DNA of 5,337 nucleotides. Source: a bacterium. GTDB taxonomy: Bacteria > ARS69. This document shows, piece by piece, positions 885 through 5,049 of the stretch (within the stretch, counting starts at the first letter, position 1; every line of letters begins with the position of its first letter). The DNA lies in NCBI GenBank assembly GCA_025774865.1, contig JALGZO010000215.1, positions 1 to 5,337 of the forward strand. Reading direction: 5' to 3'. The notes below the pieces were generated by a model that was given only the letters and a program-made list of their open reading frames with translations, had not been told where the DNA came from and did not search any database. Position numbers and translations under genes: made by a program.

Positions 885-914
885 TTGACGAATCCTACGG
901 GTACCCTGTATCTT
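885..914 (+). promoter_or_regulatory. Candidate sigma70-type promoter for the pyr operon
   Basis: In the lepB-pyrR gap a -35-like TTGACG (885-890) is followed after 18 bases by a -10-like TATCTT (909-914; T, A, T and the final T match TATAAT). This would put the transcript start near 920-922 and give a leader of about 55 bases ahead of pyrR. The gap is locally richer in A and T than the coding DNA on either side. Support is the near-consensus -35 and the position between two functionally unrelated genes. The weak -10 and lack of expression data keep this tentative. Confidence 0.5.
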
Positions 915-935: not shown

Positions 936-966
936 CTTTTAATTCCGTCCGGCGAGGCGGAGAAAG
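936..966 (+). promoter_or_regulatory. Candidate PyrR-binding RNA hairpin covering the pyrR Shine-Dalgarno
   Basis: The leader RNA can form an upper stem pairing 943-949 with 956-962 (U.G, U-A, C-G, C-G, G-C, U.G, C-G). It closes a six-base loop CGGCGA at 950-955. A lower stem pairs 936-939 with 963-966, leaving UAA (940-942) as a one-sided bulge. From memory, known PyrR-binding loops follow ARUCCNGNGAGGYU, with hexaloop CNGNGA, a purine-containing bulge on the 5' side, and GARAAG-like sequence on the 3' side. Here UCC at 948-950, NGNGAG at 951-956 and GAGAAAG at 960-966 all fit. The consensus outer A-U pair is replaced by C946-G959, which keeps pairing. The Shine-Dalgarno GGAG (959-962) lies in the 3' arm, so bound PyrR would hide it. 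That predicts translational repression, as described for mycobacterial pyrR, rather than attenuation. The leader has no visible terminator or antiterminator. Confidence 0.65.
959..962 (+). promoter_or_regulatory. Shine-Dalgarno of pyrR, inside the predicted hairpin
   Basis: GGAG sits 14 bases before the ATG at 977 (11 before a TTG at 974), which is rather long spacing. No better site exists nearer the start. Its position in the paired 3' arm of the candidate PyrR loop makes accessibility a likely control point. Confidence 0.5.
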
Positions 967-976
967 TGCGGCCTTG

Positions 977-1597
977 ATGCGAGAAGAACCCCCCTCGGCT
1001 TCCGGGGGCGACCCCCAGAACGGCATACGTACGATCCTCGACGACACCGGCATTCGCCGTGCTCTGATGCGGATCGCCCACGAGATCTTCGAGCGCAACG
1101 ACGATCTCGCGAACGTCTACCTCGTCGCCATTCCCAACGGGGGCGTTCCCCTGGCTCGGGTCCTGGCGGAGAACCTCCGGCAGATCGCCGACGTGAACGC
1201 GACGGTCGGCATTCTGGACACCACCCTCTACCGCGACGATCTCACGTCCACGAGTTCGCGCCCGATGCTGCGCACCACCGAGATGCCGTCGGCGGTGGAC
1301 GGCCGGGTCGTCGTCTTGGTCGACGACGTCGTGAAGTCAGGGCGCACCCTTCGGGCCGCGATGGACGCGCTGATGGATTTCGGGCGCCCCAAGATCGTCC
1401 AGGTGGTCGGTCTGGTGGATCGGGGGCATCGCGAGCTCCCGATCAAGCTGGACTACGTCGGCAGGAACGTTCCCACCAACCCCGAGGAGATCGTCCACCT
1501 GCGCGGCAACGACGGGGATCCGGACAGCACCCTCGAGATGGTCGTGCTGCCGGGCGATCGCAAGGAGAGCCCCCCCGCGGATTGGAGAGAGGCGTGA
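977..1597 (+). CDS. pyrR: PyrR: pyrimidine operon regulator with uracil phosphoribosyltransferase fold
   Basis: PyrR binds uridine nucleotides and pyr mRNA to repress pyrimidine synthesis; some members also make UMP from uracil and PRPP. The 206-residue protein has the family signatures in order: IRRALMRIAHEIFERN (26-41), DTTLYRDDL (81-89), the PRPP-binding VLVDDVVKSGRT (113-124), DRGHRELPI (148-156) and DYVGRNVPTN (159-168). Aligned from memory to B. subtilis PyrR, the RNA-contact residues R19, H22, R27, H140 and R141 correspond to R32, H35, R40, H151 and R152. R146 and K152 become K157 and R163, and T18 becomes Met31. Oddities are IPNGG (52-56) where many members have I-x-T-R-G, and KSGRT in place of the usual Y/F-TGRT. 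It is longer than the usual roughly 180 residues, with about 13 extra at the N-terminus and a polar C-terminal tail. ATG 977 is preferred; an in-frame TTG at 974 would add one residue. Its stop overlaps the pyrB start. Confidence 0.93.
   Translation: MREEPPSASGGDPQNGIRTILDDTGIRRALMRIAHEIFERNDDLANVYLVAIPNGGVPLARVLAENLRQIADVNATVGILDTTLYRDDLTSTSSRPMLRTTEMPSAVDGRVVVLVDDVVKSGRTLRAAMDALMDFGRPKIVQVVGLVDRGHRELPIKLDYVGRNVPTNPEEIVHLRGNDGDPDSTLEMVVLPGDRKESPPADWREA
989..1016 (+). other. Mutually exclusive C-run/G-run hairpins in the first codons of pyrR
   Basis: Five G at 1004-1008 can pair either with the C run upstream (989-994, nine-base loop) or with five C downstream (1012-1016, three-base loop CGA). 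Both are strong short stems in codons 5-14, the N-terminal part of PyrR that extends beyond the conserved domain. They could slow early elongation or compete with folding of the leader, but a chance effect of GC-rich sequence is quite possible. Confidence 0.3.
1584..1592 (+). promoter_or_regulatory. Ribosome binding site that fixes the pyrB start
   Basis: GGAGAGAGG lies just before the GTG at 1594, with GGAG ending six bases upstream of it. This spacing and the GTGA overlap with the pyrR stop favour GTG 1594 over the in-frame TTG at 1582, which lies upstream of the site and would add four residues. Confidence 0.7.
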
Positions 1598-2535
1598 TCG
1601 GCAGAGACCTACTCGGCATCGAAGATCTCCCCCGCGACGACATCGAGCGCATTCTCGACACCGCAGAACGCATGCGGGAGATCGGCGGGCGGGTCGTCAA
1701 GAAGGTTCCGACCCTGCGCGGCCGGACGATGGTCAACCTCTTCTTCGAGGCGTCCACACGCACCCGCTCGAGCTTCGAGATCGCCGGGAAGCGCCTCTCG
1801 GCGGACGTCGTGAACTTCTCGCCCGCGAGTTCGAGTCTCAAGAAGTCCGAGAGCATCCTCGACACGGCCCGTACCCTCGACGCCATGGATCCCGACCTGG
1901 TGGTCGTGCGCCACTCCGTCGCCGGGGTTCCCAAGCGGATCGCCGACGTGCTCACCGCGCCCGTGGTGAACGCCGGCGACGGGGCCCACGAGCATCCGAC
2001 CCAGGCCCTGCTCGATCTCTTGACCGTGCGCCAGGAGAAGGGACGCATCGAAGGCCTCACCGTCACGATCGTGGGGGACATCCTCAACTCGCGAGTGGCG
2101 CGATCGAACATCTACGGGTTCAGGAAGATGGGCGCCGAGGTCCGCATCGCGGCGCCGCCGCCCATGGTTCCTCCCCACGTCGAAGCGCTGGGTGTGAAGG
2201 TCTTCACCTCCCTGCGCGACGCGCTGTCGGGAGCCGACGTGGTGATGGCCCTCAGGATCCAGACCGAGCGTCTCTCCGGCGCCTGCATTCCGAGCGTTCG
2301 CGAATACTCGGCGACCTTCGGCATCGACCGCGCGAAGCTCCACTATGCGAAGGACGACGCCATCGTGATGCATCCGGGGCCCGTCAATCGCGGCGTCGAG
2401 CTCTCCCACGAGCTAACGGACGACCGCCCCAGCGTGATCCTCGACCAGGTGCGCAACGGAGTCGCGATCCGCATGGCGGTGCTCTATCTCTTCGCGGGCC
2501 GCCGGTCACAGCCGTCGAGAGGAGGGGCCGCGTGA
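1594..2535 (+). CDS. pyrB: Aspartate carbamoyltransferase catalytic subunit
   Basis: This cytoplasmic enzyme transfers the carbamoyl group from carbamoyl phosphate to aspartate, giving N-carbamoyl-L-aspartate, the committed step of pyrimidine synthesis. The 313-residue protein, a normal length, carries the carbamoyl-phosphate site FFEASTRTR (51-59; S55-T-R-T-R59) and the lid segment SSSLKKSES (79-87, with Lys84). It also has R106 and H107 before VAGVPK, HPTQALLDL (134-142), GDILNSRVARSN (161-172), and the aspartate-side MHPGPVNRG (259-267). All expected active-site motifs are present. No pyrI regulatory subunit gene is next to it, so it is probably an unregulated trimer or, as known for Aquifex-type systems, a partner of type I dihydroorotase from the adjacent gene. 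Control would then come from PyrR at the mRNA level. The start is GTG 1594, overlapping the pyrR stop by four bases; its own TGA overlaps the pyrC start in the same way. Confidence 0.96.
   Translation: MIGRDLLGIEDLPRDDIERILDTAERMREIGGRVVKKVPTLRGRTMVNLFFEASTRTRSSFEIAGKRLSADVVNFSPASSSLKKSESILDTARTLDAMDPDLVVVRHSVAGVPKRIADVLTAPVVNAGDGAHEHPTQALLDLLTVRQEKGRIEGLTVTIVGDILNSRVARSNIYGFRKMGAEVRIAAPPPMVPPHVEALGVKVFTSLRDALSGADVVMALRIQTERLSGACIPSVREYSATFGIDRAKLHYAKDDAIVMHPGPVNRGVELSHELTDDRPSVILDQVRNGVAIRMAVLYLFAGRRSQPSRGGAA
2520..2525 (+). promoter_or_regulatory. Strong ribosome binding site of pyrC
   Basis: A perfect AGGAGG lies six bases before the GTG at 2532, inside the last codons of pyrB. It is the best Shine-Dalgarno in the window and fixes the pyrC start. 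Confidence 0.8.
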
Positions 2536-3814
2536 ATCGAATCCTCGTGCGGGGAGGGCGCATCCTCGACCCGTCGTCGAAACGGGACGAGCTCGGCGAC
2601 GTACTCGTCGAGGACGGCAAGATCGCCGCGGTGGGCGAAGGTCTCGACGTCCGCGGGTCGGAGGTTCTCGAGGCCGAAGGCGGGTGGATCGTGCCGGGCT
2701 TCTTCGACATGCACGCCCACCTGCGGAGTACAAGGAGGACATCGCTTCGGGCGGTCGCTCAGCCGTTGCGGGCGGCTTCACGTCGGTGGCGTGCATGGCG
2801 AACACCCACCCGGTCAACGACGACCCGGCGATGACCGACTTCATCCTCGACCGGGCGCGTCACGATTCACCGGCGAAGATCTACCCGGTGGCCGCCGCGA
2901 CCATGGGCCTTCGCGGGGAGATCATGACGGAGATGTCGGCCCTGGTCGCCGCCGGCGCCGTGGCCTTCAGCGACGACGGCAAGACGATCCAGAACAGCGG
3001 CGTGATGCGCCGCGTCCTCCAGTACTCGCGACTCGTCGACGTCCCCATCATCGTCCACGACGAGGACCTCACCCTGGTGGGCGACGGTGTCGTCAACGAG
3101 GGGCCGGTCTCCACGCGCCTCGGTCTACCCGGCAACCCGTCGCTGGCCGAAGACGTGCTCGTGACCCGTGACCTGATGCTCGGGGAGCTCACCGGGGCCC
3201 GGCTCCACGTGGCGCACGTCTCGAGCGCGGGATCCGTCGAAGCGATCCGGCGCGCGAAGGAGCGGGGGATTTCGGTGACCGCCGAGGTCACGCCGCATCA
3301 CCTCACGCTCACCGACGAGGCCACCCTGGGCTACGACACCAACACCAAGGTCGCCCCGCCGCTGCGCTCGGCGGAAGATGTCGCGGCCTGCCGGAAAGGG
3401 CTCGCCGACGGCACGCTCGACGCCATCGCCACGGACCACGCCCCCCATGCCCTCCACGAGAAGGACCTCGACTTCGCCGAAGCTCCGCCGGGCTTGATCG
3501 GATTGGAAACCGCCGTCGCCGTCGTGCTCGAGCTCGTGCGCCAGAACGAGATCTCTCCGCTGGAGCTGGTGCGGCGGCTCTCGACGAATCCCGCGCGGAT
3601 CCTGAACCGTCCGGGCGGCGAGCTGAGTGTGGGATCCCCGGGGGATGTCACGGTCGTCGATCCCGAGCGCCGCTGGACCTACGATCCCGCGAAGGGGTTT
3701 TCGAAGAGCCGCAATTCGCCGTGGGCGGGAAAGGCTCTCGAAGGACGCGTGATCGCGACGATCGTCGATGGTCGGTTGGTCTACCACGTCGATCGCGGCG
3801 TCCTGTTCCCGTGA
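2532..3814 (+). pseudogene. pyrC: Dihydroorotase (type I), frame broken by a short deletion
   Basis: Dihydroorotase cyclises N-carbamoyl-aspartate to dihydroorotate. From GTG 2532 the frame reads a normal start through PGFFDMHAHLR (55-65), containing metal ligands H61 and H63 and substrate-binding R65. It then turns into non-homologous sequence and stops at 2832-2834. Homology resumes in another frame at GAG 2726-2728 with EYKEDIASGG and continues to TGA 3812-3814. That part has CMANTHPVND, FSDDGK (metal-ligand Asp), [25 protein letters not shown] and ATDHAPH (catalytic Asp), all intact. Family members read HLREPGxEYKE here, so about 13 bases encoding EPGx plus one base are missing. Restored, the protein would be about 431 residues, normal for the type I family. 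Neither fragment alone could be active, as the metal ligands are divided between them. Full conservation of the second part points to a very recent mutation or an assembly error. The gene overlaps pyrB and carA by four bases each. Confidence 0.88.
2724..2728 (+). other. Frameshift/deletion junction in pyrC
   Basis: At CGGAG the CGG of Arg65 (2724-2726) shares its last base with the GAG of Glu in EYKED (2726-2728). In an intact gene five codons (E-P-G-x-E) would lie between that Arg and the Tyr at 2729; only two bases (AG) are there, so 13 are missing. A likely ancestral arrangement has similar CGGGAG or CGGAG words on both sides of the lost segment, so slippage or collapse between short repeats could explain it. 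The ancestral bases are not visible. Confidence 0.8.
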
Positions 3815-5049
3815 CGGATTTCGCGGAGCGACGCGGCCCCGCTGCTCTCGCGCTGTCCGACGGAGCCATCTATCGCGGCCACGCCTTCGGCGCCGCCGTT
3901 GTCGGAGTCGGCGAGGTCGTCTTCAACACCAGCATCACCGGGTATCAGGAGATCCTCACGGATCCCTCCTACGCCGGGCAGATCGTGGTGATGACTGCCC
4001 CGCAGATCGGGAACGTGGGGGTGAATCCAGAGGACGAGGAGTCGGCTCGCCCGTTCCTGCAGGGATTCGCCGTCAAGGAGGTCTCCCCGCGACCGTCCAA
4101 CTGGCGCTCCCGGGGGCCCCTCGGTGCCTACCTGGCGCGCCACGCGGTTCCGGGGATCGCGGACATCGATACACGCGCCCTCGTTCGGCGCATCCGGGAG
4201 GGAGGCGCACAGGTCGGCGTCCTGTCCACGGATCCGGAGCAACAGGACGCGGCGGCGCTCGTGGAGCGCGCGCGGTCCGATCCGGGCCTCGACGGGCGCG
4301 ACCTGGTGGCCGACGTGACGTGTGAGCGTCCCTACGCATGGACCGAGGGCGGTTGGACCGGCGTTCGGGGCCAGCTGCCCCGGAAGGCCCGCCCCGTGCC
4401 GACCTTCCGCCTCGTGGCCTACGACTTCGGAATCAAGCGGAACATCGCCAGGCAGCTGGTGGAGAACGGCTTCGAGGTGACCGTCGTGCCGGCCCACACG
4501 TCCGCCGAAGAGGCGCTGGCGATGGATCCCGACGCGATCTTCCTCTCCAACGGGCCGGGCGATCCCGCCGGCGTGCGGGGCGTGCGGGAGAACGTGCGCA
4601 AGCTCGCCGCCGAGAAGCCGCTCTTCGGGATCTGCCTGGGCCATCAAATCCTGGCGCTGGCCCTCGGCGGGCGGACGAAGAAGCTCAAGTTCGGTCACCA
4701 CGGGGGCAACCAGCCCGGCCAGGACCTCGCCACCCGGAAGGTGGCGATCTGCGCGGAGAACCACGGATACGCCGTCGATGCCGACTCGTTGCGGGCCGCC
4801 GGCGAGCCCGTGGAGGTCACCCACGTCAACCTGAACGACGGCACGGTGGAGGGCCTCGCGCACCTCCAAAGGCCGCTCTTCTCGGTGCAGTACCACCCCG
4901 AAGCGTCCCCGGGGCCCCACGATGCGGCGTATTTCTTCGGCCGCTTCCGAGAGATGGTGGCCCGCCACAAGGCCGGTGAAGCCGTCACCGGCGCGCAGAT
5001 CGCCGCGGGCGAAGTGCCCACGTCCGGCGCCGACCCAGCGGAGAGATAG
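3811..5049 (+). CDS. carA: Carbamoyl-phosphate synthase small (glutaminase) subunit
   Basis: CarA hydrolyses glutamine and channels ammonia to CarB for carbamoyl phosphate synthesis, feeding both pyrimidines and arginine. The 412-residue protein starts with the CPSase small-subunit domain: [15 protein letters not shown] (13-27), [19 protein letters not shown] (36-54) and the [15 protein letters not shown] segment (116-130). A class I glutamine amidotransferase domain follows: LSNGPGDP (245-252), nucleophile Cys275 in [15 protein letters not shown] (293-300), ENHGYAVD (316-323), and His362/Glu364 in [11 protein letters not shown]. The catalytic triad is complete. At 412 residues it is somewhat longer than the usual 370-390, because of a polar, Ala/Gly-rich tail of about 25 residues after the last conserved helix. 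GTG 3811 overlaps the pyrC stop by four bases; further upstream in this frame the sequence is not CarA-like. No Shine-Dalgarno is visible before it, so translation probably depends on ribosomes finishing pyrC. Confidence 0.95.
5040..5043 (+). promoter_or_regulatory. Ribosome binding site of carB
   Basis: GGAG, in a longer purine stretch GGAGAGA, ends ten bases before the GTG at 5054 and lies inside the last carA codons. It supports the GTG start, which gives the family-typical N-terminus MPRREDI. Confidence 0.55.

Follow-up and report, generated by a model that had tools for sequence, protein, structure and literature searches.

The closest described relative of the leader considered here is that of the pyr operon of Mycobacterium smegmatis, for which PyrR-dependent translational repression was reportedly described by Fields and Switzer in 2007 (J Bacteriol, PMID 17601781). 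The same authors are said to have proposed that this mode is used by numerous other bacteria. In that system the first part of the transcript reportedly contains the PyrR loop, which occludes the first ribosome-binding site and has neither terminator nor antiterminator beside it, and pyrR is the first gene of the pyr operon. The other point of reference is the pyr attenuation of Bacillus subtilis, represented by the Rfam family RF00515. A literature search found no paper on a PyrR regulon in Deltaproteobacteria, a search for PyrR together with Myxococcota gave only an irrelevant one, and a plasmid search found nothing.

The window (the whole stretch of 5,337 nucleotides that was analysed) shares all of these features with M. 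smegmatis, its promoter being a predicted one. Compared by description, it differs in coming from an unrelated phylum, Myxococcota, and in its very compact leader of about 55 nt; furthermore, its clade has a C-tract after the start codon and an extended, variable PyrR N-terminus. With B. subtilis it has the RNA target in common (CNGNGA, U.G and C-G closing pairs, a 5' bulge and two stems), but it has a single site where B. subtilis has three, lacks antiterminator and terminator alike, and carries the Shine-Dalgarno sequence within the 3' arm. The predicted mode is therefore a known one, that of M. smegmatis, here newly seen and, judging from the leaders compared below, widespread in a lineage of uncultured, Gram-negative Myxococcota. 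What was a mycobacterial case of PyrR translational repression would thereby become a system spread through a whole lineage of Gram-negative bacteria in this phylum.

The pyr operon, its PyrR and its host

The genes of the window are the following:
48-863, + strand, lepB
977..1597, + strand, pyrR (NF003549, 205.7 bits against a cut-off of 138)
1594..2535, + strand, pyrB (NF002032, 396.9 bits)
2532..3814, + strand, pyrC, with its frame broken near 2715-2735
3811..5049, + strand, carA (TIGR01368, 466 bits)
from about 5054, + strand, carB, running off the window end

The gap between lepB and pyrR is 113 nt. The preferred pyrR start is the ATG at 977, which the nearest relative (L039) also has in this position; an in-frame TTG at 974 is also possible. 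Three junctions, pyrR-pyrB (where the pyrB start is GTG), pyrB-pyrC and pyrC-carA, are 4-nt GTGA start/stop overlaps, the classical arrangement of translational coupling. The pyrC frame breaks directly after the HAHLR motif, leaving two overlapping open reading frames (2532-2834 and 2684-3814), which means that either the assembly is wrong here or the gene is damaged. The operon copy on this contig may thus be damaged or misassembled, a point that counts against the explanation favoured below.

The pyrR product clearly belongs to the PyrR family by its NF003549 match, and relatives in the PDB were found. It is 46% identical to B. subtilis PyrR, the reference sequence used being identical to PDB 1a3c. 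All 13 sequences compared have the same Arg or His at the positions corresponding to B. subtilis R19, H22, H140 and R141, four residues that reportedly matter for RNA binding according to work by Savacool and Switzer in 2002. A match to a curated PyrR family is accompanied by conserved basic positions of predicted RNA-binding function. The replacement of B. subtilis T18 by Met in the clade counts against the favoured explanation.

Two further features of the protein were observed. The pyrophosphate-loop sequence IKTRG of B. subtilis reads IPNGG in the whole clade (residues 50-56, window positions ~1124-1147), and this change from KTRG to PNGG may mean that the uracil phosphoribosyltransferase activity differs. 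The conserved core is preceded by a variable N-terminal extension rich in Pro, Ala and Ser, of 18-65 residues (median ~30), at 977-1030 in the window.

The window is contig 218 of bin G000, whose contamination is 8.3%. The other PyrR of the bin, on contig 634, has 71-83% identity to its counterparts in three same-family genomes, whereas the window PyrR shows 43-49% to these three and 84% to that of L039. Given these identities and the presence of three signal peptidases in the bin, contig 218 is most likely misbinned and would belong to the lineage of L039, a Myxococcota MAG. On this evidence, the bin was rejected as the true host.

The predicted PyrR loop and its conservation

The features of the leader, and of the first codons of pyrR, are as follows:
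885..914, + strand, promoter-like pair: TTGACG (885-890), 18 nt, TATCTT (909-914); one found, 0.1 expected
936..966, + strand, predicted PyrR-binding loop, based on motif, RF00515 alignment, conservation, covariation and a 35-position model
936-966, 937-965, 938-964 and 939-963, lower stem (CUUU/AAAG)
U940, A941 and A942, 5'-side bulge (UAA)
943-962 (U.G), 944-961, 945-960, 946-959, 947-958, 948-957 (U.G) and 949-956 (C-G), upper stem of seven pairs
950-955, hexaloop CGGCGA, which is CNGNGA
961..966, + strand, Shine-Dalgarno sequence AGAAAG, within the 3' arm of the loop and complementary to the clade 16S tail CUUUCU
989..994, + strand, C-tract CCCCCC (codons 5-6, Pro-Pro), at a position conserved in relatives

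The 31-base element reads CUUUUAAUUCCGUCCGGCGAGGCGGAGAAAG. The first-pass annotation had described it as reproducing the PyrR target in sequence and in shape, and every detail that it listed holds at 936-966. The CNGNGA hexaloop stands on C-G and U.G closing pairs (the latter at 948-957), and the upper stem, the purine-rich 5' bulge and the lower stem are those of the RF00515 element. The replacement of one consensus A-U pair by C-G with pairing kept, also noted there, is confirmed against the B. subtilis PyrR-target consensus, ARUCCAGAGAGGYU (PMC7430163), whose outer A-U pair is C-G in the window. Most relatives have one more C-G pair at the outer end (alignment columns 2 and 34), where the window has a U.U mismatch, a point against the explanation favoured below. 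The clade leader consensus pattern has a single exact match in the window, with 0 expected from 200 shuffles.

The Rfam covariance model agrees with this assignment in part. RF00515 matches over the loop, at 932-978, with 29.8 bits (E 0.0095 on the 137-nt leader), but the gathering score of 54 bits is missed, which counts against the favoured explanation. Of the 115 nt that the model covers, part is attenuator sequence, and the window has the loop part only. An Rfam search of 11 clade loci at the gathering threshold reported none of them, and since these loci fall below the threshold too, the low score is due to the 115-nt attenuator model and not to the site. The Rfam PyrR model overlooks such sites, being built around whole attenuators, and a short 35-nt model finds them. 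This 35-position model (R1), made from the loops of relatives, scores the window loop at 56 bits (E 1.5e-12), the window being itself one of the 55 training rows.

Homologous loci were collected by scanning genome contigs with the window PyrR, which gave 80 loci. The 59 nearest (L039-L097) come from MAGs labelled Myxococcota or 'Deltaproteobacteria', with 60-84% identity over the best segment. The loop is present upstream of pyrR in all 59 as well as in the window, and the alignment of these 60 leaders is ungapped. The hexaloop has the same form in 60/60 clade, 10/10 sister and 16/16 distant leaders; the search pattern presupposes a hexaloop, so that the completeness of this count rests on the matches in all 60 nearest homologues.

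The pairing of the loop is backed by covariation. Standard pairs occupy 96% of the pair cells in 55 rows, against 49-61% when the partner is slid by 1-3 columns, and the cells changed on both sides number 37 against 13 in shuffles, counts that are inflated by kinship among the leaders. Three pairs show a change on both sides in any row, no more than in shuffles, because there is little variation in most columns. The strongest covariation is found at pair 943-962, which occurs as G-C, U.G, C-G and G.U. In a sister group retrieved by the model search (L180-L186) the third upper pair is A-U, and it is G-C in all 60 main-clade leaders. Such a change and counter-change in separate groups would be hard to obtain without structure. 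Moreover, RNAalifold, given no structure beforehand, arrived at these 11 pairs. Related leaders, to which the first-pass annotation had pointed as a check, keep both the CNGNGA loop and its pairing, with compensatory changes present.

The leader fold is no more stable than shuffles (z +0.98), and thermodynamic stability was dropped as evidence because the z-scores are positive. The support for the loop is its motif, conservation and covariation, not its folding energy.

In each of 25 genomes of relatives the R1 model finds exactly one strong match, which stood directly before pyrR in every case where its location was looked at; no strong second PyrR site was seen elsewhere in the window or in these genomes. 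In a phylum survey of 282 genomes, 56 contain an R1 match at E 0.01 and 162 a PyrR homologue at 1e-20. The match stands in front of pyrR in 30 of the 30 loci returned by the phylum search, many of them already aligned and several new. No PyrR loop was found at the more distant Myxococcota pyrR loci that were opened (L187-L195, L198), and it is the PyrR branch nearest to that of the window which has the loop. These comparisons support the translational mode as a predicted lineage-wide property of one Myxococcota lineage, and not a peculiarity of the window operon. In six of the distant loci (L187, L188, L193, L194, L195 and L198) lepB lies directly before pyrR, yet there is no loop between the two genes.

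Ribosome-binding site, promoter and proposed repression

The Shine-Dalgarno sequence had been placed inside the 3' arm of the loop, and its position at 961-966 is confirmed. It matches, as AGAAAG(G), the 16S tail from the clade genome L220, CCUCCUUUCU; a clade-genome 16S 3' end reads ...GGATCACCTCCTTTCT. The last four of its six bases are the 3' arm of the lower stem, and the loop and the pyr operon's first ribosome-binding site overlap, as in the mycobacterial type. The distance from AAAG to an in-frame ATG, GTG or TTG is 6-16 nt in 60/60 leaders (7-8 in 44 of them), and the window ATG at 977 lies 10 nt after AAAG. The predicted mean unpaired probability of the Shine-Dalgarno sequence is 0.18 over the 60 leaders and 0.37 in the window. 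Since the window hairpin alone amounts to only about -8.7 kcal/mol and the leader is no stabler than shuffles, occlusion of the site must depend on PyrR.

The promoter-like pair of the window ends about 20 nt before the loop. A TTGAC(16-18)TATNNT pair precedes the loop in most relatives, ending at a median of about 15 nt upstream, so that the transcript would start almost at the loop. The mean best promoter score among the relatives is 8.3 of 12, compared with 4.1 in shuffles, and scores of at least 9 are reached by 55% of their leaders but 0.08% of shuffles. With this predicted promoter, the sequence places the loop in the first part to be transcribed.

Autogenous translational repression by PyrR, carried down the operon through the overlapping genes, is the best reading of these data and very probably the right one, given the conserved and covarying loop, the Shine-Dalgarno sequence in its 3' arm, the adjacent promoter and the lack of terminators in all 60 leaders. 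The first-pass annotation had proposed the same mode for the whole coupled operon, and this proposal is supported by the same features together with the GTGA overlaps. From them we infer PyrR binding, its nucleotide dependence, the translational effect and the coupling. Transcription from the promoter at 885-914 would produce a leader of about 55 nt, in which the 31-nt hairpin would be the RNA target of the PyrR encoded downstream. When UMP and UTP are plentiful, nucleotide-bound PyrR would bind and stabilise the hairpin, and ribosomes would be unable to initiate at the pyrR Shine-Dalgarno sequence held in its 3' arm. When pyrimidines are scarce, PyrR would leave, the marginal lower stem would open and pyrR would be translated. 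This control would be carried down the operon by translational coupling, since the starts of pyrB, pyrC and carA lie inside the preceding stop codons.

The C-tract and alternative readings

A run of 5-8 C begins within 60 nt after the start codon in 42 of the 60 leaders, and within 17 nt (1-17 nt past it) in 39, whereas a similar run is found at that place in 2 of 97 control open reading frames from one complete clade genome. Of the 98 proline codons at residues 2-8, 76 (78%) are CCC, against 36-39% in the rest of pyrR and in pyrB. In the predicted ensemble the tract is mostly single-stranded, at a median of 20 nt after the loop. Its conservation reflects either selection on the nucleotides or shared inheritance. 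Candidate roles are Rho loading, CTP-dependent pausing, proline stalling and CCC-C frameshifting, and the linked tract raises a concrete new question on leader function. It is possible, if rather unlikely, that it is a second regulatory element coupled to the loop, acting either in Rho loading on untranslated pyr mRNA or as a CTP-sensing pause of RNA polymerase, on which the race of PyrR against the ribosome would depend. If true, one short leader would hold two pyrimidine sensors. Pairing of the tract with the 3' arm of the loop, as an anti-sequestering switch, was rejected, with a predicted pairing of about 0.05 and no alifold support.

A fuller role for Rho would be an addition to translational repression: once PyrR has blocked initiation, Rho would terminate the ribosome-free pyr mRNA, perhaps loading at the C-tract, and the mRNA level would fall too. 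The frequency, codon choice and predicted accessibility of the tract are in keeping with this, as is the C-rich, G-poor composition of the first 60 nt after the start (0.44 against 0.28; 0.33/0.34 in the pyrR core). However, rut sites are usually much longer than 5-8 nt, the sister group L180-L186 has the same loop and no C-tract, and the leaders are related, so that the counts are not independent; this addition is decidedly unlikely.

The hairpin could also work without PyrR, as an RNA thermometer, a low-efficiency ribosome site or a relic, and the low unpaired probabilities given above do predict partial occlusion of the Shine-Dalgarno sequence by the hairpin itself. This reading is very improbable: the CNGNGA loop and its closing pairs, which have no influence on the pairing of the Shine-Dalgarno sequence, are conserved as much as the stem, they are the elements that PyrR reportedly needs (PMC7430163), and the element always precedes pyrR itself.

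In transcription attenuation of the Bacillus style, bound PyrR would tip the leader towards a downstream terminator and away from an antiterminator. In its favour, attenuation elsewhere is driven by this very element, and in the native pyrR leader of the same bin (contig 634) the loop is joined to a terminator. The reading is hardly credible here, because a scan of the 170 nt beyond the loop finds no terminator-like hairpin in any of the 60 clade leaders, the window has no terminator at 780-1150, the start codon lies only 10 nt past the loop, and a conserved alternative structure is absent. The same terminator scan, as a positive control, finds a terminator in 11 of 16 distant relatives, and attenuation was rejected on this basis. 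The consensus fold of the 60 extended leaders consists of the loop hairpin alone, with no competing structure. The downstream antiterminator and intrinsic terminator of the Bacillus type were thus found neither in the window nor in the 60 leaders nor in their consensus fold, which bears out, in 60/60 leaders, the earlier claim that no such pair is present. Attenuation of this type is excluded as far as sequence can exclude it, and occlusion of the Shine-Dalgarno sequence by the PyrR-bound loop remains.

Homologous loops do lie upstream of pyrR in Desulfuromonadales, Syntrophales, Nitrospirota and the bin's own lineage (L098, L100, L105, L109, L110, L113, L118 and L119, the last on contig 634). 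Their leaders have an intrinsic terminator 31-81 nt after the loop, and the pyrR Shine-Dalgarno sequence lies farther downstream; in a Paenibacillus leader (L114) the terminator follows 102 nt after the loop. Related bacteria would thus display both outputs of one RNA element, attenuation and occlusion of the Shine-Dalgarno sequence.

The attenuator-type order of loop, GC-rich hairpin, T-run and pyrR was seen in these eight leaders and in L017. In L098 and L100 the 3' arm of the loop, CAAAGGATGACN, comprises a Shine-Dalgarno-like stretch and an ATG that opens a small frame towards the terminator, which suggests attenuation through translation of a leader peptide.
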